Program-made: the position numbers and the translations under genes | Notes under the pieces: generated by a model | Told to the model about the DNA's origin: nothing | The model's input: only the letters and a program-made list of their open reading frames with translations | Databases searched by the model: none | Assembly: GCF_011009015.1 (NCBI RefSeq) | Contig: NZ_CP048878.1 | Location: 1,587,001 to 1,651,000 of the forward strand | Direction: 5' to 3' | Source of the DNA: Spartinivicinus ruber | Lineage (GTDB): Bacteria > Pseudomonadota > Gammaproteobacteria > Pseudomonadales > Zooshikellaceae | DNA: 64,000 nt | Shown: piece by piece, positions 22,993 through 55,443 of the stretch | Layout of the letters: each line of letters starts with the position of its first letter | How positions within the stretch are numbered: position 1 is the stretch's first letter

Positions 22993-23019
22993 ATTAAAAC
23001 ACCACTTAAAGCCTTACTT

Positions 23020-25863: not shown

Positions 25864-25865
25864 GT

Positions 25866-27479: not shown

Positions 27480-27979
27480 TGGACCTCCACAGCAACGGTT
27501 TGCATTTTATCAACTAACTGGTTGAACTTAGTGGCTGTCATTCGGCCATGGATATCATTATTCACCCTGACTGATGGAGAGCAAGCACAGTTACCCAGGC
27601 AATAAACTGGCTCTAGTGTGAAAACGCCATCTAGTGTGGTTTGGTGATAATTAATACCTAGGGTTTGCTTGATGGTTTGTTCTAGTTGTCGGCTACCCAT
27701 GGCCTGGCAGGCTTCAGCACGACAAACCTGAATAACATACTCGCCACAAGGCTTGGATCGGAAGTGGTGATAAAAGCTAATCACTCCATGGACATCCGCC
27801 TGAGATAGATTAAGCTTGTCAGCAATCAGTGGCACGGCATCGGAAGGAATATAGCCCAATTGATCCTGGATGCTATGCAAAATAGGTAGCAACGCACCGG
27901 GTTTGTCTTTTAATGAGTCAATCGACTTTTCAACTAATTGCCGGTCCCAGCTAGAGTTACCCTGCATTCTGTTCCTCAC
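27476..27979 (-). CDS. fdsG: NAD-dependent formate dehydrogenase gamma subunit
   Basis: The 167-aa NuoE-like subunit with a thioredoxin-like 2Fe-2S domain. The ligands are in QVCRAEACQAMG (about residue 102) and YCLGNCACSPSV (about residue 143). The N-terminal helical part includes LLPILHSIQDQLGYIP and HGVISFYHHF, typical for this family. It is the first gene of the fds operon; a bulged hairpin lies 77-111 bases upstream. Confidence 0.95.
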   Translation of the reverse strand: MRNRMQGNSSWDRQLVEKSIDSLKDKPGALLPILHSIQDQLGYIPSDAVPLIADKLNLSQADVHGVISFYHHFRSKPCGEYVIQVCRAEACQAMGSRQLEQTIKQTLGINYHQTTLDGVFTLEPVYCLGNCACSPSVRVNNDIHGRMTATKFNQLVDKMQTVAVEVQ

Positions 27980-29054: not shown

Positions 29055-29921
29055 TTACATAGTTGCTAATTTCTCTCGACTAATAATCACCACTGCTGTT
29101 ACGACCATAAGGCCTCCAGCCACTCGATATAAGTTCAGCTCTTCATTTAAGATTAATACTGCAAGGATAATAGTGACTATAGGTTCTAGCGTAGATAGGA
29201 TAGCAGTATCTGAAGCGCCAATTATCATATTACCTAAATTAAGTGCAAGAATGGGAATGACTGTACTAAAAATAATCAAACCTGCTGTTGCTAGCCAGCC
29301 ACTGCTTTGTTGAGGTAGTTTAACCTCGCTGGTTATTAAGGCTGTAATGGTGTACGTTAATGCTGCACCGATAAAAATGTAAGTAGTACTAGTGATAACA
29401 TCTTTGTTGGTTAAATAGTGATTGGATAATATAATATAAACTGCATAGCCAAGCGCAGCAGCTAAACTTAGTAAAATACCTAATAGGCTTCCTTCTGGCA
29501 CTCTACCTACTGCAAAAAACACCCCTATAAGAGCAATGGCTAAAGCTGTGACTTTTAGTTTTGTTAGTAGTTCTTTGAACAAAAACCTAGCGATTACTAT
29601 TACAAAAACTGGAAATAGATATAGTAGAATAGCCACTAAACTTGCTGAAGCGTATTGCATGGCTGAGAAGTAACATAATGCAATTGTAGCATAGACAAAG
29701 CCAAGGCATATACTTGGCCAGCAAAGCTTGTTCATAGGTTTTTTTTGTAGGTGAAGAACCATTAGTAAGCAGGCGGCTGCACCTATAAATCTTATCCATA
29801 AGAGCCCTGTCGGGTTTGCTCCTGTTGTATATATTACTGAAGCAAACACTGGTTGAAAGGCAAATGTGATTGCAGCAAATAAGATGTAAAAGGCCCCTAA
29901 TGGCCATGATCTGGTTTTCAT
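29055..29921 (-). CDS. EamA/DMT-family membrane exporter
   Basis: A 288-aa inner-membrane protein with ten predicted helices in two EamA halves. The start MKTRSWPLGAFYILFA gives a first helix directly. An in-frame start 30 codons upstream (30011) would add a non-family extension and nearly abut the divergent gene, so it is rejected. The second half carries the conserved VIPILALNLGNMIIGASDTAILSTLEPIVT stretch (split here only for description), with the typical 'EP' pair before the last helices. Members export amino acids, metabolites or drugs; the substrate is unknown. Confidence 0.85.
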   Translation of the reverse strand: MKTRSWPLGAFYILFAAITFAFQPVFASVIYTTGANPTGLLWIRFIGAAACLLMVLHLQKKPMNKLCWPSICLGFVYATIALCYFSAMQYASASLVAILLYLFPVFVIVIARFLFKELLTKLKVTALAIALIGVFFAVGRVPEGSLLGILLSLAAALGYAVYIILSNHYLTNKDVITSTTYIFIGAALTYTITALITSEVKLPQQSSGWLATAGLIIFSTVIPILALNLGNMIIGASDTAILSTLEPIVTIILAVLILNEELNLYRVAGGLMVVTAVVIISREKLATM

Positions 29922-30032
29922 AAGCTCACTTAAAATGAAAAGCTTTCTATACGAAAACAAAGGTATAGTGCATGTCTGTTTAAGACATAGCTTTGCCTGA
30001 AAAGCTAACAAACATTAATAAGGGTTAATTCT

Positions 30033-30698
30033 ATGACTAATAAAATACCAATGGGAAAACACTGGTCAAAAGTTGAATATCTCCACCAATCAGTGACAAA
30101 CCCAAATATTCATATTAAAGGAACACACAGTTACTATAGTGACGCCTGGACGGGTGGTTTTGAAGAGTCTGCTGTACGTTATTTGTACGGTGATGCATAT
30201 AGTCGGGCTACTTGGAAACCTCAGTGGAAAAATGATCAACTATATATTGGTGACTATGTTTGTATTGGTGCAGAAGCGGTTATCTTGATGGGAGGAAATC
30301 ATACCCATAGAGTGGATTGGTTTAGCCTGTATCCTTTTGGTGACAATATTATTGATGCTTACCAAGGAAAAGGTGATACAAAAATAGCTGATGGTGTATG
30401 GATTGGCATGCGTGCTATGATTATGCCTGGTGTGAAAATTAGTGAAGGGGCTGTTATTGCATCTAATGCAGTGGTGACAAAAGATGTATCTCCATACTCT
30501 ATAGTGGCAGGCAACCCAGCTAAAGTCATTAAGATGCGCTTTCCTCAAGTTATTATCGAACGCCTGTTAGCCTTAAAAATTTATGACTGGCCTGAAGAAA
30601 AATTTAATGCAGTGCAGCAATGGATATGTGCTGATAATATTGAGCAACTTGAATCTGCTTTGATAGCTTATGAGAAAGAGAAAAGTATAGAGGGTTAA
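30033..30698 (+). CDS. CatB/Vat-like xenobiotic O-acetyltransferase
   Basis: A 221-aa left-handed beta-helix (hexapeptide-repeat) acetyltransferase of the XAT class, using acetyl-CoA. The catalytic His region is GGNHTHRVDWFSLYPF (about residues 89-104). Hexapeptide turns follow (IADGVWIGMRAMIMPGVKI, EGAVIASNAVVTKDV) and the C-terminal cap has VAGNPAKVI. Relatives include chloramphenicol (CatB) and streptogramin A (Vat) acetyltransferases, but chromosomal members often have other or unknown substrates. The gene is divergent from the EamA exporter and converges on cheD with a 4-base overlap. Confidence 0.88.
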   Translation: MTNKIPMGKHWSKVEYLHQSVTNPNIHIKGTHSYYSDAWTGGFEESAVRYLYGDAYSRATWKPQWKNDQLYIGDYVCIGAEAVILMGGNHTHRVDWFSLYPFGDNIIDAYQGKGDTKIADGVWIGMRAMIMPGVKISEGAVIASNAVVTKDVSPYSIVAGNPAKVIKMRFPQVIIERLLALKIYDWPEEKFNAVQQWICADNIEQLESALIAYEKEKSIEG

Positions 30699-31340: not shown

Positions 31341-32186
31341 CTAGTTGATCTGTTGGTATATAGTGCGGCCTAATGGTTTAAAGTACCTATTATTGTTATG
31401 TAAATTTTCAGAGTGTCCAATAAAAAGGTAACCATTAGATTGTAGTATTTTTGCATATCGATTAATTAGCCTTTTGCGGATTTCCTGATCAAAATAAATC
31501 ATGACATTACGGCAAAATATAATGTCGAATTTGCCACGCATTGGCCATTCGTGAAGTAGGTTTAATTGGTTAAATGTTATTATTTTTTTTAAAGAATCTT
31601 TCACTTTTACTTGGTTATCATTAGTTCTATCACAGAACCACTTTTTCAACCTTGGTTCGCTAACCGTTTTAAGTTGGTCTTTCCGGTAAATACCTGATTT
31701 AGCATGATTAAGTACATTTGAATCTAAATCCGAAGCTAAAAGTTTAGTATTCCAGTTAGGGTTGATCATTTCTCGCATAATGATAGCAATGGAGTATGGT
31801 TCCTCACCGGTGGAGCACCCTGCAGACCAGATACGAACTCGCTTGTCATGCTGGTGTTGACGAATGACTTCAGGAATTGCTGTTTTTTTTTAAAATTCAA
31901 AATGATGTGGCTCACGGAAAAAAGAAGTTAAATTAGTGGTAATGGCGTTGACAAACTCTTTATGCTCTGTATTGTTTTCTTTCTTAAGTAAGTCACAGTA
32001 TTGCGAAAATGTTTGTAACTTTAGGGAGCGTAAACGTCGAACAAGACGACCATAAATCATGTCTCTTTTATGCTCACGCAATTTAATCCCAGTAATATTA
32101 TAAGCGATTGTCTGAATGAAAGCGAAGTCATTATCGCTCATAGGAAATTCGCGGCTTAAATAATCATTTTTAGTGTTAATTGTCAT
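31341..32186 (-). pseudogene. cheR: CheR methyltransferase gene with one in-frame stop
   Basis: Both halves of a CheR chemoreceptor methyltransferase are in the same frame, separated only by a TAA at 31890-31892. The first half has the N-terminal domain (KLREHKRDMIYGRLVRRLR) and ends TSFFREPHHFEF. After the stop the frame continues KKTAIPEVIR, then WSAGCSTGEEPYSIA (SAM-binding motif I), FDIIFCRNVMIYFD and the C-terminal FIGHSEN block. A leucine codon TTA is expected at the stop position, so a single T-to-A change would explain it. No indel is needed. The product is probably inactive unless the stop is read through. The start used is ATG 32186; an ATG at 32141 is also possible. Confidence 0.8.
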
Positions 32187-32336
32187 GTTGTTGCAACGTA
32201 ATAACAATGGCGATGATAGGGCATTATATCTAGGTTTTTTGAGTATAGGTTATAAAGTTAAGATATAGCATGTAGTGTAGTATCTTTATGACAGTATATT
32301 TATAGGTATGAATATTAGTCAGATATTATAAGTGGG

Positions 32337-33070: not shown

Positions 33071-36000
33071 ATGGTTGCTTGTATTAATTTACACCTTTCT
33101 CAAGAAGAAGTATTTTTTGATCAAATTGCAAACCCCAAGACTACTCAATGGAATATTGGTAGTAATGTAAAAATAAATGGTCAACTTAAGCCTGAATTTT
33201 TAATGCAAGCAATAACTTTCGTAGTTGAGAGTTTAGATATATTTAAGTTTAAAGTTAGCGAGGATGAGGGAAACCCATATTTATATAAAGATCCTTTGAT
33301 TAATATAGATTATCGTAATCAATTAGACTTTAGTAGAGAAAAATTCCCAGAAGATAAGGCTAAACAGTTTATTCGAGACGAGTTTGATACCAATTTTGAA
33401 CTGCTTTCCGGTAATTTATATGAGTTTTATTTATTGAAGCTATCTGATCAGGAATATTGGTGGTGCTCACGTTTTCATCATATTTTAATCGATGGTTTTG
33501 GTATAGCTATTTTTTGTAAAACAGTGGCTAAACTCTATACAAGTCTTGTACAAGGCAAGCCTGCCGGCGATCTACAGCATAATCTGTTTGCATACTTGGA
33601 TTCAATCAAAGAGTCCCATTTTTATTATAATTCTAGTCAATATCAGCAGGATACAGTTTATTGGAGGAATAAGTTTAATACTGTTCCCGAGAAGTTGCTT
33701 GCGAAAAAATATAGTCAACAATTGTTTATTAGTGAAACGATTGATATTGAAATAGCTAAGCAGGATAGAGAGCAACTGGAGCAATTTAGAAGCACAGCTA
33801 ATATCAGTTTATTGCAAATGACGCTTGCTGCGTTGGTTATTTATTTCGATCGTATAACAGCTCAACAGCCACTGGTATTTGGTATACCATTACATAACAG
33901 ACTGAGTAAAAAGCAACAAAAAACAGTAGGCATGTTTACTTCGTTGGTACCTTTTTGCTACCAAATGGGTGATTCAAAACCAATAGATGCTTTATTAGCA
34001 GAAATAAAAAACACCCGAAAACAAGACTTTCCTCATCAACGCTACCCATTAGCTCATTTAAAAAGACAGATGATTGAAAAATTTGGTCAAAGTTATGAGT
34101 TATTTGACGTTGCAGTAAACTACGGCAAGTTTGATTATCAATTAGAGTTTGATGGACTTGAATCGACTGTTCAACAAGTAATTAGTCGAAAAAAATCATT
34201 GCCTCTACATGTTTTTTGGTGTGACTTTGGTCAACACCAACCGTTAACGCTAAAAATTATCTACCGGAATGATTATATGGATGAGCAGGAAGCAACACTT
34301 TTTGCTCAGAGAGTTATCCATATTTTACAGCAGCTAGTTACTAAAACTGATTGCCTTACTAGTGATATTGAAGTGATTAGTGCCTCTGAGCTGCAATTAA
34401 TCCAATCTTGGACTCAACCAAAACAAGTTTTGAGTGAAGAACAAAGTATTTTTAATAATAAGCAGATTCAGACTTTATTTGAAGAGCAGGTTGATAAACA
34501 ACCTGACTCAATAGCTGTTGTATTTGGTCAACAACAACTGACTTATTATGAGCTCAACTCTAAAGCTAACCAGTTGGCTCACTATTTAGTTGAGCATGGG
34601 GTTCAAGCCGAAACTTTGGTGGGGCTGTGTGTTGAACGCTCTATTGATATGGTCATTGGAATGTTGGCTATTATTAAAGCAGGTGGTGCTTATTTACCAA
34701 TTGACCCTAGTTATCCTAAAGAAAGACAAGCCTATCTATTAGAAGACAGTCGGCCGATATTAATACTCACCCATAGTAACTTATTGGCGGAATTACCTGG
34801 TTTTAATGGCAGAATATGTTGTCTTGATATTGAGTGGCCAAAACTTAAGCATTACGCCAAGACTAACCTACAGGTTTCTAATAGTTTAAATAGTCTTGCT
34901 TACATCATTTATACATCTGGTTCTACCGGTAAGCCTAAAGGCGTGTGTGTTGAACAAGCAGGTATTATTCGTCTGGTGAAAGCAACTAACTATGTAGCAC
35001 TATCACCAACAGATGTTATTGCTCAAGCATCTAACCATTCTTTTGATGCAGCCACCTTCGAAATCTGGGGGGCTTTATTAAATGGAGCTAAATTGGTATA
35101 TATCAGTAAGTCTGTGTTACTACTACCTGAAGCACTTAAAGCACAGTTAAGTCGGGATAATATTACGACTCTTTTTATGACAACGGCGCTTTTTAATGCA
35201 GTGGTCGAACAACAGCCTGATACATTTAGCCAATTAAAATATTTAATATTTGGTGGTGAGGCGGCCTCAGTCACCCATGTTAATCGTGTTCTAGATAATG
35301 GTAAGCCAGCGCATTTATTAAATGTATATGGCCCAACAGAAAATACAACGTTTAGTACTTGGTATGAAATACAGGGACAGCAGCAGTCATATCCTATTGG
35401 TATACCTTTGGCATATTCCAGCGCCTACGTGGTAGATAAGCACAATAATTTTTGCCCTGTTGGAGTTGCGGGTGAATTGTTGGTTGGTGGATTTGGAGTT
35501 GCTCGAGGTTATTTAAACAGGCAAGAATTAACTGCTGAAAAATTTATTAATAACCCATTTAATTCTGTGGAAAATGAGCGGCTGTATAGAACAGGGGATT
35601 TAGTGTGTTGGTTGCCAGATGGTAATTTGGAGTTCTTAGGACGTATTGATAACCAAATAAAACTCCGTGGATTTAGAATTGAGCTTGATGAAATAGCAAG
35701 CTTATTAAAGCAACATGAACAGGTCAAAACAGCAACTGTCTTAGTTCGCGAAGATCAGCCAGGGGATAAACGTTTAGCTGGTTATGTTGTAACGGCGAAT
35801 ACAAATAGCTCCCTCGAAACAGAACTGTTGCAGCATTTGGCAAACCAATTGCCAGAATATATGGTACCTGCAGCTATTGTCGCTTTAACCGAGTTTCCTC
35901 TAACTGAAAATGGCAAGATTGATCATCAGTCACTTCCCAAGCCTGATTACAACTTAGTTAATAATATGGTGACGCCAAGTAGTGAGGTAGAGAAATCTCT

Positions 36001-39000
36001 GGCATTAATTTGGCAACAGGTATTGGGTATTGAGCAACCACTTAGCTTACATGATCATTTCTTTAATTTAGGTGGGCACTCTTTATTGGCAGTAAAACTA
36101 GCCAGTCAAATACGCCATCAGTTCCAAGTGGATATTGGCATTGAAACAGTCTTTGCCCAGCCAACCCTTGGTGCTTTGGCTAATATTATAACAGCAACAA
36201 ACACAACAGTATTATCTAGAATTAATGCTACTGATCGTTTAGCTCCTTTGCCTTTGTCCTACGCGCAGCAACGCTTATGGTTTATTGACCAAATGGAAAA
36301 GGGCAGTCAGCAATATCATATACCAATTACCTATCATTTGTCTGGCAACTTAAATATAAAGGCATTATCTCAAGCTTTTATCAAGTTAATTGAGCGCCAT
36401 GAATCATTAAGAACAGTTTTTAAACTGCTAGATGATGAAGCACGACAGTATGTGCAAACATTACCAGAAAATTGGCAGTTAACTGTCACTGACTTACGAA
36501 CGGCAACCATTGAAGAAAAACAACAACAGCTCGATACTTTGAAGAAACAGTTGCATAAGCTACCATTTGATTTAAGTCAGGACTTAATGTTGCGGGCACA
36601 TTTAATTAGATTGATAAATGATGAAGCACTGTTGTTAATAACAATGCATCATATTGCATCTGATGGTTGGTCTGCAGAAATTTTAATTAAAGAATTAAAC
36701 CACCTTTATAATAGTTTTATAGAAAACCAAAATAATCCCCTGCCAGAACTGACAGTTCAATATGGGGACTATGCTATTTGGCAGCGGGAGTGGTTGCAAG
36801 CAGAACGACTGAAAAAAGAGCTGGCTTATTGGCAACAACAGCTGGCAGGAGTACCAGAGGTACATAACTTACCATTAGATAAGCCAAGGCCTACTGTACA
36901 AAAGTATCAAGGGAAGCGAATTGAGCAGATTATTCCTGCTGCCTTAGCGGACAAATTTGAAGCCATCTGTCGAGATCAAGAAGCGACCTTATTTATGGGC
37001 TTACATGCGGTATTGTCCATATTAATTAACCGTTATAGTGGTGAATCGGATATTGTAATTGGTACGCCTGCTGCTAACCGGGAGCAAGCTGAAGTTGCGC
37101 CATTAATCGGTTTTTTTGTTAATACCCTGGTATTACGAGCAGATTTGTCCGGTGATATTAATTTTAAACAATTATTGGATCAGACTAAAAAAACGGCATT
37201 AGCTGCTTATGCTCACCAGCAATTGCCATTTGACACTCTTGTAGAATACATACAGCCTGCTCGCAGCTTGGGTTATCATCCATTATTTCAGATTGTTTTA
37301 GCGTTACAAAATAACCAACAAGCCAAATTACAGTTAACAGAGGTACAGGCAGAATTACTCAAGCCTGAATTATTTACGGCTAAATTTGATCTAATGTTAA
37401 ATGTTGAAAAAAGCTCATCGGGGTTTGCTTTATGGTGGGAGTATAACACAGCTTTATTTAATCATAATACAGTTGAGCAACTAGCAAGTCATTTTAATCA
37501 ATTAATTGAACAGCTAGTATTATCGACTGATCGTCCATTTAAAGAGTTGTCCTTATTAAGCGAGGATGAACAGCAACGTTTATTAACACAATGGAGTAAT
37601 AGTCAGTCTATTTGTCAGGCAAGCGAAACTATTCATCGTTTATTTGAGCGGCAAGCATTAAAGACGCCGGAAGCTATTGCGGTTGTTGCTGAAGGTGAGC
37701 AATTAACGTATCAGGCACTTAACCAGAGGGCAAATCAACTTGCTCATTATTTGCGGGCTAGCGGTGTTGATACCGAAACTTTAGTAGGACTATGTGTTGA
37801 ACGCTCTATTGATATGGTAGTCAGTATTTTAGCTATTTTAAAAGCAGGTGGTAGTTATCTTCCGCTTGACCCCAGTTACCCTAAAGAACGTTTGGATTAT
37901 ATATTAGAAGACAGTAATCCACTTTTATTGATTACACAACGTAATTTATTAAATCATTTTCCTGATTATACTGGTTTGATTACTTACATAGATACAGACT
38001 GGCCAATCATTCAAGCATACACTGGACATAATCTGACGAATATTTCGGAAATAACCAAGCTTGCTTATGTTATTTACACATCTGGTTCAACAGGTAAGCC
38101 TAAAGGCACCTTAGTTAGACATAAAGGGGTGGTTAGATTAGTTATTAATAACCAGGCATTGCCATTTTTATCTCCTGAAACAGTCACCATGCAATGTGCT
38201 TCAATCGCATTTGATGCAGCAACATTTGAATTATGGGGGGCATTATTAAACGGTGGTCGAGTAGTGCTTTATAGTGAAGAGATGGTTGATATTAAGCTGT
38301 TAGAATCAATGATCAACCAGTATCAAGTGAATACTATGTGGCTTACAGCAGGTTTATTTGACCATTTTGTTCAGCAGGTAGATACGCCACTCAATTCAAT
38401 GCAATATTTGCTGGCTGGTGGGGATGTGCTTTCACCTGAGTCGGTTCATCAGCTTTATCAGGCTTATCCCAATATTCAGGTGATAAATGGGTATGGTCCC
38501 ACAGAAAATACCACGTTTACTTGCTGCTACTCGGTGCCACGTGATTTTAATCAAAACCAGGCATTGCCTATTGGCAAACCGATTAGCGCCACTCATGTAT
38601 ATGTATTAAATGATGCACTTGATTTATTACCCACAGGGGCTATTGGTGAGCTTTATGTTGGGGGCGATGGATTGGCCAAAGGCTATTTAAACCAGACAGA
38701 ATTAACCGCAGAAAGATTTATACGACATCCATTTAACAGTGATCCTCATGCCTGGTTATATCGTACAGGTGATTTAGTGCGCTGGCTGCCTGATGGTAAT
38801 TTAGCCTTTGTTGGGCGAGCTGATCACCAGGTAAAAATACGTGGATTTCGTATTGAGTTAGGGGAAATTGAAGCATTAATTGCAGCTTGTGAGCAAGTAC
38901 AAGAAGTTGTAGTGATTGCCAGGGAAGATCGACCAGGAGATAAACGACTAGTTGCTTATATTGTAGCGGAGCCAACCATCAACTTTACTGTATTCAAAAG

Positions 39001-42000
39001 ACAGTTAAGCAAACAGATGGCCTCTCAATTACCTGAATATATGGTGCCTACTGCATTGGTGGCATTAACAGAGTTACCTTTAACTACTAATGGAAAAGTT
39101 AATCGTAAAGCATTACCTAAACCAGATTATCGTAATGATGCTGCATTTATTAAACCAGTTAGTCCTACACAAATAGCACTAGCACAGTTGTGGAAACAAG
39201 TGCTTGGTATAAATGAGGAGTTGAGTCTGATAGATAACTTTTTTGGATTAGGCGGACATTCGCTATTAGCTGTAAAATTAGCAGGTTTAATCCGCAAGCA
39301 GTTTAAGCTGGAAGTGAGTGTTAGAGATATTTTTGCATTTCCTACTTTGGATGGATTAGCTACGAGCCTTGAGCAGGGAAGCGTAACTCAATTAATTAAT
39401 TCAGATAATCATGTCACTATTCATAAAACTAACCGGTCGGAACCATTACCACTATCTTATGCACAACAACGGTTGTGGTTTATAGATCAAATGGAAGAAG
39501 GCAGTGATCAGTATCATATGCCTTATTTATACCGGTTAACTGGACCTTTAAATAAAGAGGCATTATCACTAGCATTTAGGAAGGTTTTACAGCGCCATGA
39601 AAGTTTAAGAACAGTGTTTAAACTTATGAATGGTGAGGCTCGACAGTATGTGCAAGCATTACCAGAAAACTGGCAACTGGTGAGCTCGGATTTACGAGAC
39701 CAATCGTATGCGCTACAACAAAAGCAGCTTGAAAAAATCAAACAACAAATACATAAAACTCCCTATGACTTAAGTCATGATATAATGTTGCGTGCTCATT
39801 TGGTACAGCTAAAAAGCCAGGAAGCATTACTGTTAATTAATATGCATCACATTGCTTCTGATGGTTGGTCAATGGGAGTGCTAATGAATGAGCTTAATCA
39901 ATTGTATGCTAATATTTGCAAAGGTAATTCAGTAGAAAAAAACTTACCTGAATTAGCCATTCAATATGGTGATTATGCTGTTTGGCAAAGGAACTGGTTA
40001 TCTGGTCAATTGTTAGAGGAAAAATTAGACTATTTGCAACAGCAGTTACAGGGTATTCCTGAGGTACATAATTTACCATTAGATAATCCAAGGCCAGCTG
40101 TACAGCAGTATCGTGGCAGCCATTTTGTGTATGAGTTAGACCCCATATTAATCAAGCAGTTTAAGGCCTTATGTCAGGCTAAGGGGGCTACTCTATTTAT
40201 GGGATTGCATGCAGTATTGGCATCCTTGATTAGCCGTTACAGTGGTGAAACGGATATTGTTATTGGTACTCCGGTAGCTAATCGGGAACAATCAGAGGTT
40301 GCTACGCTGATTGGTTTTTTTGTTAATACGCTAGTATTGCGTAGTGACTTGTCTGATGAAATAAGTTTTGATGATTTATTAATACAATCTAAACAGACTG
40401 CATTAGCAGCCTATACTCGTCAGCAAGTGCCCTTTGATCATTTAGTGGAACGACTAAAACCGTCACGTAGTTTAAGTTACCACCCAATATTTCAAGTAAT
40501 GCTGGCTTTACAGAATAATGAGCAGGTAGCACCGGAATTAGATAACATTACAGCAGAATTAATTAGACCTGATTTTCCTGTGGCTAAGTTTGACTTAACG
40601 TTAGTAGCGGAGGAAAGAGAACATAGCTTTGTTTTAACCTGGGAATATAACACAGCAATTTTTAAATGTAGCACTATTGAGCAGTTTGCTAAGCATTTTG
40701 TTAAGTTATTAGAGCAGGCTATTATCACACCTGATATGCCAGTAATGCAGTTGCCATTATTATCTAAACAGGAAACTGAACAGCTACTGGCTGACTATTC
40801 TAGAACGGTTTGTACGACTGTTAATACCAAAATTTTGGGCGGCAATAATGGTATACATCATCTTTTTGAACTGCAAGCTTATAATACGCCAACGCAAACT
40901 GCAGTGGTGTTTGAAGCTCAACAGCTGAGCTACCAGCAATTAAATGAAAAAGCCAATCAACTAGCCCATTATTTAATGGCAAGAGGTGTTACCCCTGGTA
41001 CGTTTGTGGGGATTTGTTTAACCCGTTCTTTAGACTTGATTACGACGATTTTAGGTATTTTAAAAGCGGGTGGTGTTTATGTCCCACTAGATCCAAACTA
41101 TCCACTCGAGCGCTTATCATTTATGGTTGAAGATAGTAAAGTTAAGTTTATTCTGATGAATAAAATGTTAACTGATGCTATACCTCTTGATCAGATACAA
41201 ATTAGTGAGTCAAATATTATTTATATAGACGATTTGCAAGTTACTGATCAACTAGGTAAATGTCCTGTTACCAACATTACTGATGAAAAAGTAAATGTAG
41301 CTGCAGCTGACTTGGCGTATGTGATTTATACATCTGGCTCTACAGGGAAACCAAAAGGTACATTAGTTAATCATAAAGGTTTGGTAAATATTCTCCAAAG
41401 CCAAAAGGAAAATTTGCAGTTATCAACCACTAGTCGGGTATTACAATTTGCTTCAATTAGTTTTGATGCTGCTACCTGGGAATGGAGTATGGCGCTTACG
41501 TCGGGTGCAACCTTATATTTATTTCCACAGGCGATGATTGTTTCATTGGAGACACTATCTGAACAAGTCGCTAATTTTCAGTTGACCCATGCTTTATTAC
41601 CGCCAGCGGTATTGCCTTTGTTAAATGAAAATAATTGGCAGTCGCTAAAATGTTTAATTATTGGAGGGGATAGTTGTCCGTTAGATTTAGCCAAACAATG
41701 GTCTAAAGAGCGCATTTTGCTTAATGCCTATGGACCGACTGAAGCAACTATTTGCGCAACGATTGCTCAAATTACCGAAAATGATTCAGTAATGCATATT
41801 GGCAAACCTTTTACTGGGGTAGAGGCTTATGTTCTGGATAAAGCTCAACAACCAGTACCAATTGGTGTTGCTGGTGAGCTTTATATTGGTGGTGTTGGGG
41901 TTGCTAGAGGTTATTTGAATAGACCTGAGCTGACAGCAGAAAAGTTTATTCAGCATCCATTTAATAATGATCCATCAACTCGATTATATGCAACAGGTGA

Positions 42001-45000
42001 TTTAGTGCGTTGGCTACCCGATGGCAACCTTGCTTTCATGGGAAGAATTGATCACCAGGTAAAAATACGCGGATTTCGTATTGAGTTGGAAGAAATTGAA
42101 GCCCTGATATTAAACCATGAAGGAGTAAAAGAAACTGTAGTCATTGCTCGTGAAGATCAGCTAGTTGATAAACGATTGGTTGGGTACGTTGTTGTTGATA
42201 CCTCTCATAGTTTTGAAATGATTAAGCCTGACATTATGCAGTTGCTATCTGAGCAGTTACCTGAGTATATGGTGCCTGCAACCTTAATGGAGGTTATGTC
42301 ACTACCCCTAACACCTAATGGGAAAGTTGATAGAAAAGCTTTACCTAGCCCAGTTTATCAGGGTGAATCCTCTATTGTTGAGCCGACAACTGAGTTAGAG
42401 ATTGCCCTAGCTGGTTTGTGGCAGAAGGTATTAGGAACTGACGATACAATCAGTCTAAACCATAACTTCTTTGGGTTAGGTGGTCATTCATTATTAGCTG
42501 TTCGTTTGAGTGGTTTAATACGTCAAATGTTTAATGTGGATATAAGTGTAAGAAATATATTTACTACCCCTACACTCGGATCACTGGTCAAAGCTATTGA
42601 ACAAGCACAGGTGAGTGAGCAGCCAGTTATTAAGCCTGTCGACCGGTCACAACCTTTACCTTTATCCTATGCCCAGCAACGGTTATGGTTTATTGACCAA
42701 ATGGAAGAGGGCAGTCAGCAGTATCATATACCCTTTATTTATCAGATCACTGGCCACTTGAATAGTGATGCATTATCCCAGGCATTTATTGCATTGTTAA
42801 CTCGCCATGAAAGCTTGAGAACTGTTATTCGTTTACATGAGGGTAAAGCTGCACAGGTTGTATTAACTTTAGCGGAAGACTGGTCTTTACCAATAACGGA
42901 TGTGAGATATCAGTCTAAAAATTTACAACAAAAACAGATTAATTCATTAAAGGAGCAGTTGCATAAAGCACCATTTGATTTAAGCCAGGATTTAATGTTA
43001 AGGGTACATCTAATCAGAGTGTCCAATGATGAAAATTTATTATTAATGACGATGCATCACATCGCGTCTGATGGATGGTCCGTTGGTGTTTTAATTGATG
43101 AATTAAATCAGCAATATAATAATTTAAGTCAAGAAAAGGCCATGGAATTATCTGAATTAGCCATTCAGTACGGTGACTATGCTGTGTGGCAGAGACAATG
43201 GTTACAAGGCGAAGTACTTGAAAAACAACTGACTTATTGGCAGCAGCAGCTGTCGGGTATTCCTGAAATACATAGTTTACCTTTAGATAAGCCTCGACCA
43301 GCTGTTCAACAATTTAATGGTGAACACCATTTTTGTGAGATAGATGCAGAGTTGGCTAAGCGTTTTAAAGCATTATGTCAAACGCAGGGCGCCACATTGT
43401 TTATGGGGCTTCACGCTGTATTAGCCACTTTACTAAGTCGTTATAGTGGTGAAAGTGATATTGTGATAGGTACGCCTGTAGCTAATCGTGAACAGGCAGA
43501 AGTCTCTGCATTAATTGGTTTTTTTGTCAATACATTAGTTTTGCGTTGCAATGTATCTGCAGAACTCAGTTTTAATGAGTTGTTAGGTCAATGCAAACAA
43601 ACAGCATTAGCAGCTTATGCTCATCAGCAAGTACCATTTGATCATTTAGTTGAAACTTTACGGCCAAGTCGAAGCTTGAGTTATCACCCTGTTATTCAGG
43701 TAATGTTAGCGTTGCAAAACAATCATAGAAATGAATTACAGTTTAATCAATTAACAATAACTAGTGAACCATTGGCATTATCTACCTCATTGTTTGACTT
43801 AACGTTAAATGTAATAGAAAAAGAGGGCAAGTTTATCTTATGTTGGGAGTATAATACTGATCTATTTCTTGACGAAACTATTGAAAATTTAGCTCGCCGG
43901 TTTGAAAAGATTATGACCTTTGCTACTACAAAGCCAGGTCAAGCAGTTTTTAAGTTACCTATACTGACTAATTATGAAGAACAGCAACTCATTAATATTA
44001 ACCAGCAACAAGCGCTGTTGCCTAACAATGAAAGTAATGCTTGTATTCATCAACTATTCGAGCAAGTAGCTGACCAATATCCACAGTCAATAGCTATTGT
44101 TTGTGGAAGTCAGACATTAACTTACTCAGTATTAAATAGCAAAGCTAATCAATTGGCTCATTATCTTCTGGAACTAGAGGTTAAACCTGATGATATAGTC
44201 GCTATTTGCTTGGAACGATCAATTGATTTAATGATTGCAATTATCGCAACGTTGAAAGCTGGTGGCGCTTATTTACCTTTAGATCCTACTTATCCCGATG
44301 ATCGTATAAATTATATGTTAGAAGATTCAACTGCAAAGCAGTTGATTACCACTAAGTTATTATCGAAGAAACTTGGTTGTAATAGTCAAAACGTGGTATG
44401 TATTGATGAAGAATTTCTCATGCAGCATGTTGTTGCTTTACCGGTAACTAATATTAATCTTGAAACTATTAATGTAACGAATAATCACTTGGCTTATTTA
44501 ATATATACTTCTGGCTCTACTGGTTTACCCAAAGGTGTGATGGTGGAACATCATTCGTTAGTTGACCATATTCAGGAAGTTATTAATGTTTATCAGGTTT
44601 GGCCACAGGATCGGGTATTACAGTTTTTTAATATTGGCTTTGATGCTGCAACGGAGCAGTTTTTTGTAAGCCTCGTATCTGGTGCCACATTGTATCTACA
44701 TGATAAAGGGCTAATCACTGATAAAGAGTTTGCTAAGCTATTGTTACAGGATGAATTAACTCATATTGACTTGCCACCGTTATATGCAAAGGAAGTATTA
44801 CTACCTTATATTAATGATATTGAATTCTGGCAACAATCCAAACTACGAAATGTAATTGTTGGAGGAGATGTTTTACCTGCTGATTTCGCTAGAGCCTGGG
44901 CAACGAGTAAAGCTAATTTACACTGCCAGTTAATTAATATTTATGGACCGACTGAAGCAACAATTGCATCGACCTATTATGTTGTTCCAGATAATATAAA

Positions 45001-47095
45001 TTATCATTCAGTTCCTATTGGTATTAATACATCAGGCTCTAAGTTGTATGTGTTGGATCAATATCAATCACTAGTGCCTATTGGAGTACCAGGAGAGCTG
45101 TATATTGGTGGCAAAGGGGTTGCAAGAGGATACTTAGGTAAGTCAGAGTTAACAGCAGAAAAGTTTGTTATGGATCCGTTCACAGATCCTGATGGAAATT
45201 CAAATGCAAAAATGTATCGTGCTGGAGATAGGGTGCGCTGGTTACCTGGTGGTAATTTAGAGTTTTTAGGACGAATAGATAATCAGGTTAAAATACGAGG
45301 TTACCGGATAGAGCTGGGTGAAATAGAAACTCAACTTAATTTACATGACTGGGTGACAGATACCGTTGTGGTGATCCATGGTAATGAAGGTGAAGAAAAG
45401 AAAATAGTTGCTTACTTGGTTATGAATGATGCTGTTGATAATGAATCATATCAGCAGATAATAACTTGTCAGAAAATGTTGCAAAGAGAGCTTGAAGTTT
45501 ATTTAAAACAACGCTTACCGGACTATATGATTCCTAGCTGTTTTCTAGTGATTGATCAGATACCATTAACTCCTAACCAAAAGGTTGATCGAAAAGCATT
45601 ACCTGATCCTGTTTTTGCTATTAGTCAGCTTGTAATAGAAAGTGCCGAATCACGCTTAGAGCAACAGTTGTTGACGATCTGGCAAACAGTGTTAGATGTG
45701 AATAAAGTATTTGGTGTTACGGATGATTTCTTTTCTTTAGGTGGCCACTCAATTCTAGCTGTGCGACTGGTTGCTGCAATTAATAAACAGTTACTGTTTA
45801 AACTGACTATTCAGCAATTATTTGCTAACCCTTCGGTTAGGGAATTAGCTTATTTTATTGAAGGCACTAACAAACAGCAAAAAGATCAAGAAAATAGGAA
45901 AAATTCTCTTGAGTATCAACAGGTAAAAATTGAGGATAATTTAGTAGCAGCAGTACCAGATTTTACTGTTCTTCCTAATCACTCAGTTGGTAATTTTAAT
46001 CATGTTTTGCTAACTGGTGTGACAGGCTTTGTTGGTGCCTATCTATTAAATAAAGTACTTACTCAGTGGTCGCAGGCAAACTGTTATTGTGTAGTAAGAG
46101 CTAGCGATATCAATGTAGGTTATATAAGGATTAAGCAAAACCTAGAAAAATATGGATTATGGGAAAGTGCCTATAATGAACGAATTACTGTTATATTAGG
46201 TGATCTTAATCAGGATAAGTTAGGATTAGCGGAGCACTTATGGGAAGCATTGGTAGAAGAGATTGATTTAATTATTCATAATGGTGCATGGGTTAATCAT
46301 TTATTGCCCTACCAGCAGCTGAAACCTGCTAATGTTAATGCAACGTTATCTTTAATGGAGCTAGCTAGTAAAGGGTGTCATACTCGGTTTACTTATATCT
46401 CAACAACTGGTGTATTTAGTAGCCAACTAGGTCGGGATCAGGTTTCAGAAGTAACTTCTATTGAAAATGAAAGACAGTTAGCACACTCGGGATATGGTGC
46501 TTCGAAATGGGTAGCTGAAAATCTATTACTTGCAGCTCAACAAAAAGGACTGGATTTATTGATTTTTAGATTAGGTCGAGTGGCAGCTGATAGTAATACT
46601 GGACAAGGTGCACCTGAAGATGTAATAGGCCGTTATTTACGCTCTTGTATGTTATTGTCAGTTGTTCCTGATAGCTCATTTGAAGAAACCTTAATTACGG
46701 TTGATACAGTAGCTGATGCAGTCATTAATTTAGTTAGTAGGAAAAGGTTAGAGCAACGAATTTTTCATTTAATAGGTAATCAAGTAGTTGATTGGAACCA
46801 AGTGCTAATTAAGAATACGGCTCTAAGTCAGGTAAGTTGGCAGCAATGGTTAGCCATTGCTAAGGAGGCGGCTAATAAAAATAGTCATTTACCTGTTGCA
46901 CCCTATTTACACGGTATTTTTGATAGTACGAATAAAGCAGTTGGTTTTGCTATTAATCAGGAATTAACTGAGAAAGTACTTATCGAACAGGATGTCAATA
47001 TTTCAAGAGTGACGGATACCATGTTGAGCCAGTACATTAATTTATTAGCTGAAATGGTTGAAACTATAGAGGTAATTGACGTTATTAATGAATAG
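33071..47095 (+). CDS. Four-module non-ribosomal peptide synthetase with terminal reductase
   Basis: A 4674-aa NRPS with the order C-A-T-C-A-T-C-A-T-C-A-T-R. Condensation motifs are HHILIDG (H136) in C1 and HHIASDGWS near residues 1192, 2258 and 3327. Carrier serines are S1004, S2064, S3140 and S4227 (LGGHS motifs). Ten-residue adenylation codes read by eye are DAFFIGVTFK (module 1, Ile/Val-like), DAFWLGGTFK (module 2, Val), DAWLIGAICK (module 3, Leu or aromatic, uncertain) and DAEDIGIIAK (module 4; two acidic pocket residues suggest Lys/Arg/Orn). The end (from about residue 4310) is a thioester reductase with GVTGFVG, YISTTGVF and YGASK, so release as aldehyde or alcohol is expected. C1 differs from the other three and may acylate the first residue. 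No epimerisation domain, thioesterase, MbtH or phosphopantetheinyl transferase gene is nearby. AAGGA precedes the ATG. Confidence 0.95.
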   Translation: MVACINLHLSQEEVFFDQIANPKTTQWNIGSNVKINGQLKPEFLMQAITFVVESLDIFKFKVSEDEGNPYLYKDPLINIDYRNQLDFSREKFPEDKAKQFIRDEFDTNFELLSGNLYEFYLLKLSDQEYWWCSRFHHILIDGFGIAIFCKTVAKLYTSLVQGKPAGDLQHNLFAYLDSIKESHFYYNSSQYQQDTVYWRNKFNTVPEKLLAKKYSQQLFISETIDIEIAKQDREQLEQFRSTANISLLQMTLAALVIYFDRITAQQPLVFGIPLHNRLSKKQQKTVGMFTSLVPFCYQMGDSKPIDALLAEIKNTRKQDFPHQRYPLAHLKRQMIEKFGQSYELFDVAVNYGKFDYQLEFDGLESTVQQVISRKKSLPLHVFWCDFGQHQPLTLKIIYRNDYMDEQEATLFAQRVIHILQQLVTKTDCLTSDIEVISASELQLIQSWTQPKQVLSEEQSIFNNKQIQTLFEEQVDKQPDSIAVVFGQQQLTYYELNSKANQLAHYLVEHGVQAETLVGLCVERSIDMVIGMLAIIKAGGAYLPIDPSYPKERQAYLLEDSRPILILTHSNLLAELPGFNGRICCLDIEWPKLKHYAKTNLQVSNSLNSLAYIIYTSGSTGKPKGVCVEQAGIIRLVKATNYVALSPTDVIAQASNHSFDAATFEIWGALLNGAKLVYISKSVLLLPEALKAQLSRDNITTLFMTTALFNAVVEQQPDTFSQLKYLIFGGEAASVTHVNRVLDNGKPAHLLNVYGPTENTTFSTWYEIQGQQQSYPIGIPLAYSSAYVVDKHNNFCPVGVAGELLVGGFGVARGYLNRQELTAEKFINNPFNSVENERLYRTGDLVCWLPDGNLEFLGRIDNQIKLRGFRIELDEIASLLKQHEQVKTATVLVREDQPGDKRLAGYVVTANTNSSLETELLQHLANQLPEYMVPAAIVALTEFPLTENGKIDHQSLPKPDYNLVNNMVTPSSEVEKSLALIWQQVLGIEQPLSLHDHFFNLGGHSLLAVKLASQIRHQFQVDIGIETVFAQPTLGALANIITATNTTVLSRINATDRLAPLPLSYAQQRLWFIDQMEKGSQQYHIPITYHLSGNLNIKALSQAFIKLIERHESLRTVFKLLDDEARQYVQTLPENWQLTVTDLRTATIEEKQQQLDTLKKQLHKLPFDLSQDLMLRAHLIRLINDEALLLITMHHIASDGWSAEILIKELNHLYNSFIENQNNPLPELTVQYGDYAIWQREWLQAERLKKELAYWQQQLAGVPEVHNLPLDKPRPTVQKYQGKRIEQIIPAALADKFEAICRDQEATLFMGLHAVLSILINRYSGESDIVIGTPAANREQAEVAPLIGFFVNTLVLRADLSGDINFKQLLDQTKKTALAAYAHQQLPFDTLVEYIQPARSLGYHPLFQIVLALQNNQQAKLQLTEVQAELLKPELFTAKFDLMLNVEKSSSGFALWWEYNTALFNHNTVEQLASHFNQLIEQLVLSTDRPFKELSLLSEDEQQRLLTQWSNSQSICQASETIHRLFERQALKTPEAIAVVAEGEQLTYQALNQRANQLAHYLRASGVDTETLVGLCVERSIDMVVSILAILKAGGSYLPLDPSYPKERLDYILEDSNPLLLITQRNLLNHFPDYTGLITYIDTDWPIIQAYTGHNLTNISEITKLAYVIYTSGSTGKPKGTLVRHKGVVRLVINNQALPFLSPETVTMQCASIAFDAATFELWGALLNGGRVVLYSEEMVDIKLLESMINQYQVNTMWLTAGLFDHFVQQVDTPLNSMQYLLAGGDVLSPESVHQLYQAYPNIQVINGYGPTENTTFTCCYSVPRDFNQNQALPIGKPISATHVYVLNDALDLLPTGAIGELYVGGDGLAKGYLNQTELTAERFIRHPFNSDPHAWLYRTGDLVRWLPDGNLAFVGRADHQVKIRGFRIELGEIEALIAACEQVQEVVVIAREDRPGDKRLVAYIVAEPTINFTVFKRQLSKQMASQLPEYMVPTALVALTELPLTTNGKVNRKALPKPDYRNDAAFIKPVSPTQIALAQLWKQVLGINEELSLIDNFFGLGGHSLLAVKLAGLIRKQFKLEVSVRDIFAFPTLDGLATSLEQGSVTQLINSDNHVTIHKTNRSEPLPLSYAQQRLWFIDQMEEGSDQYHMPYLYRLTGPLNKEALSLAFRKVLQRHESLRTVFKLMNGEARQYVQALPENWQLVSSDLRDQSYALQQKQLEKIKQQIHKTPYDLSHDIMLRAHLVQLKSQEALLLINMHHIASDGWSMGVLMNELNQLYANICKGNSVEKNLPELAIQYGDYAVWQRNWLSGQLLEEKLDYLQQQLQGIPEVHNLPLDNPRPAVQQYRGSHFVYELDPILIKQFKALCQAKGATLFMGLHAVLASLISRYSGETDIVIGTPVANREQSEVATLIGFFVNTLVLRSDLSDEISFDDLLIQSKQTALAAYTRQQVPFDHLVERLKPSRSLSYHPIFQVMLALQNNEQVAPELDNITAELIRPDFPVAKFDLTLVAEEREHSFVLTWEYNTAIFKCSTIEQFAKHFVKLLEQAIITPDMPVMQLPLLSKQETEQLLADYSRTVCTTVNTKILGGNNGIHHLFELQAYNTPTQTAVVFEAQQLSYQQLNEKANQLAHYLMARGVTPGTFVGICLTRSLDLITTILGILKAGGVYVPLDPNYPLERLSFMVEDSKVKFILMNKMLTDAIPLDQIQISESNIIYIDDLQVTDQLGKCPVTNITDEKVNVAAADLAYVIYTSGSTGKPKGTLVNHKGLVNILQSQKENLQLSTTSRVLQFASISFDAATWEWSMALTSGATLYLFPQAMIVSLETLSEQVANFQLTHALLPPAVLPLLNENNWQSLKCLIIGGDSCPLDLAKQWSKERILLNAYGPTEATICATIAQITENDSVMHIGKPFTGVEAYVLDKAQQPVPIGVAGELYIGGVGVARGYLNRPELTAEKFIQHPFNNDPSTRLYATGDLVRWLPDGNLAFMGRIDHQVKIRGFRIELEEIEALILNHEGVKETVVIAREDQLVDKRLVGYVVVDTSHSFEMIKPDIMQLLSEQLPEYMVPATLMEVMSLPLTPNGKVDRKALPSPVYQGESSIVEPTTELEIALAGLWQKVLGTDDTISLNHNFFGLGGHSLLAVRLSGLIRQMFNVDISVRNIFTTPTLGSLVKAIEQAQVSEQPVIKPVDRSQPLPLSYAQQRLWFIDQMEEGSQQYHIPFIYQITGHLNSDALSQAFIALLTRHESLRTVIRLHEGKAAQVVLTLAEDWSLPITDVRYQSKNLQQKQINSLKEQLHKAPFDLSQDLMLRVHLIRVSNDENLLLMTMHHIASDGWSVGVLIDELNQQYNNLSQEKAMELSELAIQYGDYAVWQRQWLQGEVLEKQLTYWQQQLSGIPEIHSLPLDKPRPAVQQFNGEHHFCEIDAELAKRFKALCQTQGATLFMGLHAVLATLLSRYSGESDIVIGTPVANREQAEVSALIGFFVNTLVLRCNVSAELSFNELLGQCKQTALAAYAHQQVPFDHLVETLRPSRSLSYHPVIQVMLALQNNHRNELQFNQLTITSEPLALSTSLFDLTLNVIEKEGKFILCWEYNTDLFLDETIENLARRFEKIMTFATTKPGQAVFKLPILTNYEEQQLININQQQALLPNNESNACIHQLFEQVADQYPQSIAIVCGSQTLTYSVLNSKANQLAHYLLELEVKPDDIVAICLERSIDLMIAIIATLKAGGAYLPLDPTYPDDRINYMLEDSTAKQLITTKLLSKKLGCNSQNVVCIDEEFLMQHVVALPVTNINLETINVTNNHLAYLIYTSGSTGLPKGVMVEHHSLVDHIQEVINVYQVWPQDRVLQFFNIGFDAATEQFFVSLVSGATLYLHDKGLITDKEFAKLLLQDELTHIDLPPLYAKEVLLPYINDIEFWQQSKLRNVIVGGDVLPADFARAWATSKANLHCQLINIYGPTEATIASTYYVVPDNINYHSVPIGINTSGSKLYVLDQYQSLVPIGVPGELYIGGKGVARGYLGKSELTAEKFVMDPFTDPDGNSNAKMYRAGDRVRWLPGGNLEFLGRIDNQVKIRGYRIELGEIETQLNLHDWVTDTVVVIHGNEGEEKKIVAYLVMNDAVDNESYQQIITCQKMLQRELEVYLKQRLPDYMIPSCFLVIDQIPLTPNQKVDRKALPDPVFAISQLVIESAESRLEQQLLTIWQTVLDVNKVFGVTDDFFSLGGHSILAVRLVAAINKQLLFKLTIQQLFANPSVRELAYFIEGTNKQQKDQENRKNSLEYQQVKIEDNLVAAVPDFTVLPNHSVGNFNHVLLTGVTGFVGAYLLNKVLTQWSQANCYCVVRASDINVGYIRIKQNLEKYGLWESAYNERITVILGDLNQDKLGLAEHLWEALVEEIDLIIHNGAWVNHLLPYQQLKPANVNATLSLMELASKGCHTRFTYISTTGVFSSQLGRDQVSEVTSIENERQLAHSGYGASKWVAENLLLAAQQKGLDLLIFRLGRVAADSNTGQGAPEDVIGRYLRSCMLLSVVPDSSFEETLITVDTVADAVINLVSRKRLEQRIFHLIGNQVVDWNQVLIKNTALSQVSWQQWLAIAKEAANKNSHLPVAPYLHGIFDSTNKAVGFAINQELTEKVLIEQDVNISRVTDTMLSQYINLLAEMVETIEVIDVINE

Positions 47096-54404: not shown

Positions 54405-55443
54405 AATTCCTAATTATCATCATACCTAAGCTATATTTAGTAGCTTACCTGGTAGTGGAGGTGTTCTCAGTGCTACAAATGCTAGCCTAGGAATAAATTC
54501 TACTAAGCTAAATCTTCGATTAAATCGATACTGAAATTCAGCAAGATAACGTTGTGCATATTTAGCGCGAATAGCATGATAAGTACTACGTAAAGCACTT
54601 TTTAAGTTTCCAAGGATGGTGTTAACCCAATAAAATTCAGGTTCCTCTACTGATGCACGACCACCACCGCATACAATTTTATCATGAAGACAACCTGCTT
54701 CTATGACACCATTAAAACAGGCCAGTCCATCGGAGATTACGGTACTGCCCTTGGCCAAATTCTGCCTACTCCAAGCCGTTATCTCTTCTTTATTAAACCC
54801 TTTTAAAATGCTCAGTTTAATTCGTGTCGGTTGACCTTGTTTTGTTGTTTCTACGGCTGCTACAAAAGGTATTTTCCCATCTGCTCCCCTACCTCTTTTG
54901 CAACCTGTACGCTCACCACCAAGATAGGCATCATCAATTTCAATAAAACCCGACAATTGCTTGGTGCCTTCTCTTTCTTGCATCACTTTCATGAGCTTAT
55001 GTTTCATTCTCCAGGCAGCTTGATAGGAAATACCTAAATGGCGATGTAATTCTATGGCTGATATACCTTTTTTGTCTTGGGAGATCAAATACATCCCTTG
55101 GAACCAAGTCTTTAATGGTAATTTGGTTGATTCAAAGATAGTACCTGCAGTTACAGATGTTTGCTGGTGACATTTATAGCACTGCTGAAGCTTTCTAGTA
55201 GTGAGTTGACAGCATTTGTCGTATCCACAATTGGGGCACTGAAAACCTTCTGGCCATCGCAATTTGTATAAGGTATTAAAGCATTGTTCTTCTGTACCAT
55301 ATTGTTTGAGAAACTCGTTTAAACTCAGGCCTTTTTGAAATTGAACTTTGTTGATAGCCATTATTTATACCTTCTCAATTAAGTTTCCATGCTGTTCAAA
55401 TATACAGCAGTTAATGGCTTAGGTATAGTGATAATTAGGAATT
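54405..55443 (-). mobile_element. IS1595-family insertion sequence (ISXO2 type)
   Basis: Ends are near-perfect inverted repeats: left AATTCCTAATTATCATCATA then CCTAAGC (54405-54431), right the complement with two differences (55417-55443). One transposase gene lies between. I could not find a convincing target-site duplication, so the exact ends are uncertain by a few bases or the copy is old. Confidence 0.8.
54426..55361 (-). CDS. IS1595-family transposase
   Basis: A 311-aa ISXO2-like transposase, apparently full length. An N-terminal zinc ribbon (CPNCGYDKC..CYKCHQQTS, about residues 42-70) precedes the catalytic domain with FIEIDDAYLGGERTG (first Asp, about residue 143), STVISDGLACFNG (second Asp) and YWVNTILGNLKSALRSTYH carrying the Asn replacing the usual Glu in this family. 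It closes with YLAEFQYRFNRR. The stop codon is inside the left inverted repeat of the element, as is common for compact insertion sequences. Confidence 0.9.
   Translation of the reverse strand: MAINKVQFQKGLSLNEFLKQYGTEEQCFNTLYKLRWPEGFQCPNCGYDKCCQLTTRKLQQCYKCHQQTSVTAGTIFESTKLPLKTWFQGMYLISQDKKGISAIELHRHLGISYQAAWRMKHKLMKVMQEREGTKQLSGFIEIDDAYLGGERTGCKRGRGADGKIPFVAAVETTKQGQPTRIKLSILKGFNKEEITAWSRQNLAKGSTVISDGLACFNGVIEAGCLHDKIVCGGGRASVEEPEFYWVNTILGNLKSALRSTYHAIRAKYAQRYLAEFQYRFNRRFSLVEFIPRLAFVALRTPPLPGKLLNIA

Follow-up and report, generated by a model that had tools for sequence, protein, structure and literature searches.

An apparently stand-alone nonribosomal peptide synthetase of Spartinivicinus ruber with a predicted, reductively released basic tetrapeptide product

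What does a lone synthetase gene make, how is its product released, and how did it come by its modules? These questions are raised by a gene of Spartinivicinus ruber, a red marine bacterium described for its prodiginines, whose genome of 6,687,090 bases lies in four contigs (contig 1, 6,361,125 bases). The window analysed here, a stretch of 64,000 nucleotides (NZ_CP048878.1, positions 1,587,001 to 1,651,000), holds a single open frame from an ATG at position 33071 to position 47095 on the forward strand that encodes a nonribosomal peptide synthetase (NRPS) of 4,674 aa. The main text of the genome paper on strain S2-4-1H contains none of the terms NRPS, nonribosomal or antiSMASH (PMC7484904). 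The synthetase is apparently uncharacterised; peptide aldehydes released by reductase (R) domains are already known, and we do not propose a new system. In this study, we consider it probable, with some reserve, that the enzyme makes acyl-L-Ile/Val-L-Val-L-(Leu/Phe)-L-(Arg/Lys), released reductively, and that it gained two of its four modules within Spartinivicinus. One gene would thus specify a candidate inhibitor of trypsin- or cathepsin-type proteases, namely an acylated tetrapeptide that is basic at P1 and ends in an aldehyde (or alcohol).

Architecture, conservation and genome setting of the synthetase

The Pfam matches (four Condensation, four AMP-binding, four AMP-binding_C and four PP-binding stretches, and one terminal NAD_binding_4 match at residues 4314-4551) give the order C-A-T-C-A-T-C-A-T-C-A-T-R, which bears out the original prediction of four C-A-T modules ending in a reductase. 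The HHxxxDG motif is intact in all four C domains (residues 136, 1193, 2259, and 3329) and LGGHS is intact four times (residues 1000, 2060, 3136, and 4223), the last copy marking the T4 carrier domain (45638-45865, approximate) that stands ahead of R. The R domain (45938-47092), assigned from its motifs, Pfam, and the R tree as an NAD(P)H-dependent thioester reductase, carries GVTGFVG at residues 4316-4322 and Y4475xxxK4479, so that the GxxGxxG and YxxxK motifs predicted to be intact are indeed present; their three glycines, Tyr, and Lys are invariant among five aligned R domains. Both features that place a protein among NRPSs with reductive release were therefore found, namely C-A-T modules whose core motifs are intact and, at the end of the protein, an NAD(P)-binding R domain that keeps both of its motifs.

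Two named families were considered and set aside. The protein scores 3135.9 against the NCBIfam model for AusA (NF047350; cut-off 2500), but this score is summed over six stretches and the architecture differs: AusA, which has two modules, no starter C domain, and the residue order Val then aromatic, stands against four modules, a starter C domain, and a last code of the basic type in S. ruber. The score against the MxcG model (NF038078), 2026.6, lies below the curated cut-off of 2300.

In an orthologue search across the whole family (five genomes), both congeners were found to carry full-length orthologues of 4,653 and 4,651 aa (with the start chosen by us), 72.3% and 72.5% identical to the S. 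ruber protein over 4,647 and 4,645 aligned residues, respectively. An intact frame of 14 kb kept in all three Spartinivicinus genomes, S. ruber included, is not due to chance. Between the two congeners dN/dS (Nei-Gojobori) is 0.116 overall, 0.124 for A4, and 0.150 for R, with a range of 0.070 to 0.169 across nine domains; the gene is maintained by purifying selection, which extends to A4 and R. Comparisons of S. ruber with its congeners, at a dS of about 1.6, are near saturation and are weak evidence on selection. This conservation across the genus, and the two-module relative in Zooshikella described below, go beyond the original prediction.

The synthetase seems to stand alone, its gene making up the whole locus. 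Upstream lie an EamA transporter gene (29055-30011), a CatB-like acetyltransferase gene (30033-30698), and genes for CheD and a CheR-like protein; downstream, on the opposite strand, lie genes for a PilB/MshE-like ATPase and a 199-aa protein. The EamA and acetyltransferase genes are also upstream of the NRPS gene in one congener (G001), and the acetyltransferase gene is at C16:37121-37753 in the other (G002). Each Zooshikella genome has orthologues of the acetyltransferase (70%) and of the ATPase (67%), which lie on different contigs from the NRPS; these two genes have thus probably long adjoined the site without belonging to the pathway. For EamA, the Zooshikella stretches compared gave no match. 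We thus rejected a dedicated cluster formed with EamA and the acetyltransferase, both of which look like old neighbours, the case being weaker for EamA. The earlier statement that the gene has no dedicated cluster and no adjacent MbtH gene agrees with this survey: the neighbours include no recognisable pathway or MbtH gene, and the sole MbtH match in the genome is far off (C1:3305220; 33.3 bits, profile positions 1-38 of 53). Two PPTase-family (PF01648) matches are present in the genome. Among 20 neighbouring proteins, Pfam recognised none of the capreomycidine- or ureido-forming kind expected in a cluster for an antipain-like ureido tetrapeptide aldehyde.

Several features of the surroundings deserve mention in their own right. 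The CheR-like gene (31341-32207, reverse strand; assigned by eye) is split into frames of 145 and 105 aa, and its counterpart in G001 is one frame of 280 aa (L023:1833-2675); CheD, which adjoins it in S. ruber, has no match in the G001 stretch compared. Beside the NRPS gene, G001 encodes a protein of 2,202 aa that carries RTX calcium-binding repeats (L023:2952-9560, reverse strand). A frame in G002 with a start that is similar by eye (L025:8701-14001, forward strand) is cut at the end of the stretch, and no such frame occurs at the corresponding place in the S. ruber window. Further away, an NAD-dependent formate dehydrogenase-like set (22081-27979, reverse strand; 2Fe-2S, 51K, and molybdopterin subunits and FdhD) has a G+C content of 43-48% against about 36% around it and was possibly acquired. 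Transposase genes flank the NRPS region without adjoining it, at 17760-18905 (forward strand; DDE_Tnp_1 with DUF4372) and 54426-55361 (reverse strand; IS1595 family).

Pocket codes, condensation domains and the predicted peptide

The four pocket codes that had been read by eye were all reproduced in a MAFFT alignment of the A domains, namely DAFFIGVTFK for A1 (34433-35950), DAFWLGGTFK for A2 (37613-39130), DAWLIGAICK for A3 (40838-42355), and DAEDIGIIAK for A4 (44033-45610; all A-domain limits are approximate). The code columns follow GrsA numbering as placed by motif anchors. The tenth letter, K, was added by default; the corresponding lysine of motif A10 was confirmed in five Spartinivicinus and Zooshikella synthetases, and each of the four S. 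ruber A domains has it. The congeners share the codes of A2, A3, and A4, and their A1 code, DAFFLGVTFK, differs by one I/L exchange.

Published codes bear on the first three residues. The Ile/Val positions of cyanopeptolin carry DAFFLGVTFK, and DAFWLGGTFK, identical to the code of A2, is listed as Val; the earlier likening of A1 and A2 to Ile/Val and Val pockets thus holds. The code DAWCIGAVCK, which accepts Leu and Phe, is close to that of A3, and we therefore predict Leu or Phe at the third position. The exact codes of A3 and A4 were not found in the full text searched, which left supplementary tables outside its scope, and DAEDIG matched an eggshell proteome alone.

For the last residue, a 2025 survey of 37 Arg domains reports the majority tendency D-(A/V)-E-D-(I/V/L)-G-A-(V/I)-(T/D)-K (PMC12283262), with which A4 agrees at eight of ten positions, differing at 322 (I) and 331 (A). 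The same genome encodes a myxochelin-like synthetase with the code DAEDIGTVVK, which matches A4 at seven of ten positions; its use of Lys is suggested by homology, as MxcG uses Lys (PMC8400222). In the A tree, A4 joins A2 of Zooshikella (SH-aLRT 97), then a DAEDIGAITK domain of another Gammaproteobacterium (80), and at the next step out DAEDIGTVVK and DVEN(I/V)GGITK domains (93, under the 95 mark). In raw identity A4 is slightly nearer to its own A3 (44%) than to Zooshikella A2 (41-42%) or the DAEDIGAITK domain (42%), and is 32% identical to the myxochelin-like A domain, so that it is the tree and the code that place A4 in the basic clade. The code and the tree nevertheless support the basic C-terminal residue of the original prediction, and a basic residue 4 is well supported by the A4 code. 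Arg and Lys fit the pocket about equally; we would give Arg about an even chance, Lys roughly one in three, and all other residues together a small remainder.

The condensation domains bear on the other end of the peptide. C1 (33071-34390; Pfam match 33089-34396) has three structures of RzmA-Cs as its best PDB matches (7c1k, 7c1h, and 7c1p), with EntF fourth and VibH also matched; the latter two take aryl donors from carrier proteins. RzmA-Cs is described as a starter domain that takes acyl-CoA (PMC7804268). C1 is set apart from C2-C4 in both C trees and groups with C1 of Zooshikella (99/98 in the 25-row tree); it thus falls nearest the starter C domains that accept acyl groups, away from the LCL type, which supports a predicted acylation of the first residue. 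If C1 instead used an aryl donor of the 2,3-dihydroxybenzoate type, the product would be siderophore-like, as the matches to EntF and VibH might suggest, as might the myxochelin-like C-A-T-R synthetase of the same genome, whose C domain falls on the C1 side of the C tree. However, no aryl-acid gene was recognised beside the NRPS gene, C1 is closer to that of Zooshikella, and its best matches are to an acyl-CoA starter; we regard an aryl donor as highly improbable. The myxochelin-like synthetase, present in all three Spartinivicinus genomes, is followed by a gene resembling, by eye, that of a siderophore-interacting protein (L030:4455-9703).

With acyl-CoA as the favoured donor, C1 would load a group between acetyl and a medium-chain fatty acyl and pass it to the first residue, and modules 1 to 4 would add L-Ile/Val, L-Val, L-Leu/Phe, and L-Arg or L-Lys. 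C2 (36242-37570), C3 (39428-40750), and C4 (42638-43990; all limits approximate) begin with LSYAQQRLWF and carry HHIASDG, a pattern of the LCL type, as their place in the trees also suggests; Pfam finds no fifth C-like (epimerase) domain in the protein. Given the starter C1, the LCL-type C2-C4, and the lack of an epimerase domain, all residues should remain L and an acylated all-L tetrapeptide is predicted.

The trees on which these placements depend differ in breadth. A contig search confirmed 122 relatives, the best 80 of which were analysed; codes are missing for those without an R motif (4) or an A motif (9 more). The A tree holds 91 of 176 A-domain rows, L033 and L034 being left out as duplicates of G004 and G003, and L039, L045, L048, L050-L074, and L077-L112 being represented by one row per distinct code. 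The first C tree holds 59 of 70 candidate stretches, with Mx000 in twice; the second is a hand-picked set of 25, to which L041 and L047 gave no rows. The quick A, C, and R trees carry SH-aLRT support alone and gave warnings of long branches and uneven letter make-up.

Reductive release and comparison with known systems

Among solved structures the R domain is closest to that of MxaA (183 bits; 37.6% identity over 306 columns), ahead of a polyketide synthase R domain (154), a carboxylic acid reductase (94), a mycobacterial NRPS R domain (85), and AusA (66); the cyanobacterial R domains compared are 32-38% identical to it. In the R tree (46 rows, including two partial ones from the PDB), the R domains of S. 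ruber and Zooshikella form a clade of their own (99) that is not joined to MxaA. Domains of the Dieckmann type (R*) have lost the catalytic Tyr of YxxxK. Release by such a domain, as for tetramates, was ruled out by the presence of Y4475 and K4479, and the expectation of a reductase outside the Dieckmann-type group is upheld by the retained Tyr, the R tree having been built without an R* reference.

The favoured outcome is release of an acyl-tetrapeptide aldehyde, basic at P1, through NAD(P)H-dependent reduction of the peptidyl thioester by R. Serine or cysteine proteases of the trypsin or cathepsin type would be expected to react reversibly with such an aldehyde to a hemi(thio)acetal. R domains are described as transferring two electrons to give an aldehyde or four to give an alcohol (PMC12783407), and we take the aldehyde as the default expectation and the alcohol as a real rival. 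A four-electron reduction would make an acyl-tetrapeptide alcohol (argininol or lysinol) the main product. The closeness of MxaA speaks for it, a paper title in a reference list tying that enzyme to primary alcohols, as does MxcG, which yields both aldehyde and alcohol (PMC8400222). However, the identity to MxaA is just 37.6%, the R tree keeps MxaA apart, and the aldehyde is formed first in either case; on balance we think an alcohol as the main product possible but rather unlikely.

It might also be that the aldehyde is an intermediate and that the Lys amine or Arg guanidine closes on it to give a cyclic imine or carbinolamine, as R-domain aldehydes can proceed to cyclic imines (PMC7586950). 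The basic side chain predicted from the A4 code would allow this, but no cyclisation or oxidation enzyme was recognised beside the NRPS gene. Argininal hemiaminals, moreover, are in equilibrium with the aldehyde. We hold a cyclic main product to be quite improbable, and return to the aldehyde as the expected form. Reductive release to a basic peptide aldehyde, as originally proposed, is thus supported as a prediction by the domain order, the codes, and the intact R domain, and no identical characterised cluster with another product was found in the literature searched, MIBiG lying outside its scope.

The predicted compound would belong to a familiar chemistry. Leupeptin is acetyl-Leu-Leu-argininal and is comparable in its chemistry, as an acyl peptide with a basic aldehyde. 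Spumigins and aeruginosins that carry argininal are known from cyanobacteria. Their basic aldehyde terminus is of NRPS origin, as predicted for the S. ruber product, whereas spumigins are described as mimics of D-Phe-Pro-Arg, unlike the peptide predicted here (PMC6266488). In the Streptomyces group of omicsynin, deimino-antipain, and chymostatin, an R domain likewise forms the C-terminal aldehyde, and omicsynin analogues without it lost antiviral activity; these compounds are ureido tetrapeptides made with other genes in the cluster, in contrast to one protein with a starter C domain in S. ruber, and omicsynin has Arg as its second residue and not its last (PMC12783407). The myxochelin synthetase MxcG and the myxochelin-like gene of the S. 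ruber genome (L030:4455-8786) resemble the present synthetase in the predicted release by R after a basic residue, and the code DAEDIGTVVK has the letters DAEDIG of A4; they differ in having a single module and an aryl donor, and in the low A-domain identity given above.

In a sample of 369 gammaproteobacterial genomes, 45 (S. ruber included) match A4-T4-R at E <= 1e-100, and the listed match extends into R in 12 of these (S. ruber included). No close orthologue was found in this sample, in whose listing neither congener nor Zooshikella appears; the best proteins outside are 37-38% identical, the top score falling to another Gammaproteobacterium, G120. Its NRPS (L152:42-10583) has the order A-MT-T-C-A-T-C-A-T-R, with a Pro-type code, DVQYIAHVVK, in the middle A domain and DAEDIGAITK in the last, and is an independent example of R preceded by an Arg-type last code. 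This layout is close to X-Pro-Arg chemistry such as that of spumigin (PMC6266488). For G120 an N-methyl-X-Pro-Arg product, either aldehyde or alcohol, is predicted; as its frame begins close to a contig end, the frame may be incomplete.

Two-module relatives and the history of the modules

Zooshikella harenae (G004/L028) encodes a C-A-T-C-A-T-R protein of 2,643 aa by Pfam, and the corresponding NRPS of Z. ganghwensis (G003/L026) appears in its draft genome as frames of 518 and 2,091 aa. The broken Z. ganghwensis gene (L026:10712-18723) may reflect a pseudogene or an assembly error. The Zooshikella codes are DALFFG(I/V)(I/V)CK followed by DAEDVGAIAK, the latter of the acidic-pocket type. These synthetases differ from that of S. 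ruber in having two modules and not four, and their R domains are 40-42% identical to its R domain; from the starter C through both A domains and the internal C to R, their parts have counterparts in the S. ruber protein in the same order.

The trees give this correspondence its detail. Besides C1 and R, which group with their Zooshikella counterparts, A3 joins Zooshikella A1 (95) and A4 joins Zooshikella A2. The weakest link is that of A3, which is 41% identical to Zooshikella A1 and 48% identical to a cyanobacterial Phe-type domain. A1 and A2 are mutual sisters (89), 51% identical, that group with several Val-type codes and lie away from the Zooshikella A domains (37% identity). C2, C3, and C4 stand together (100/98) as sister to the single internal C domain of Zooshikella (98/98), and a tree joining that domain with C4 alone was rejected (p-AU 0.0145), in a test that was chosen once the quick tree was known. 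Given the matches in order to C1, A3, A4, and R, two modules (Ile/Val and Val) appear to have been inserted in Spartinivicinus: a two-module ancestor of the form Cs-A-T-C-A-T-R would have acquired a further block of two modules, placed after the starter C and ahead of A3. The simplest reading is an insertion of A1-T1-C2-A2-T2-C3 at that place, with the C copies arising by duplication.

The opposite course, in which the two-module form arose by loss from a four-module ancestor, would be open if gene conversion among C2-C4 had made them mimic late duplicates, and the two genera alone available and the long branch to the Zooshikella C domain leave it some room. It is, however, at odds with the position of the Zooshikella internal C as sister to the whole C2-C4 set and with the rejection of the tree that pairs it with C4, within the limit on that test just given. 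We judge loss to be unlikely and keep to a gain of modules.

With gain as the preferred direction, there is about an even chance that the Zooshikellaceae enzymes form a series in which a fixed warhead end (A3-A4-R) and an acyl starter (C1) were kept and two Ile/Val modules were inserted, turning a maker of dipeptide aldehydes into one of tetrapeptide aldehydes. If this is true, the predicted contacts with the protease grew from P2-P1 to P4-P1, and the pair records a natural experiment in module insertion with reductive release kept working. Engineers report that module insertion of this kind, with reductive release retained, is not yet generally applicable (PMC7586950); with two modules in one genus and four in its sister, the pair may serve as a natural model for adding modules to synthetases that end in a reductase. 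A 2018 study of Z. ganghwensis VG4 lists a single-ORF, seven-domain NRPS found by PRISM, with a predicted structure of 3-hydroxydecanoyl-Phe plus a 2-aminohexanoic acid (PMC6127377). This is probably the Zooshikella two-module gene, so that the two-module form has not gone wholly unnoticed.
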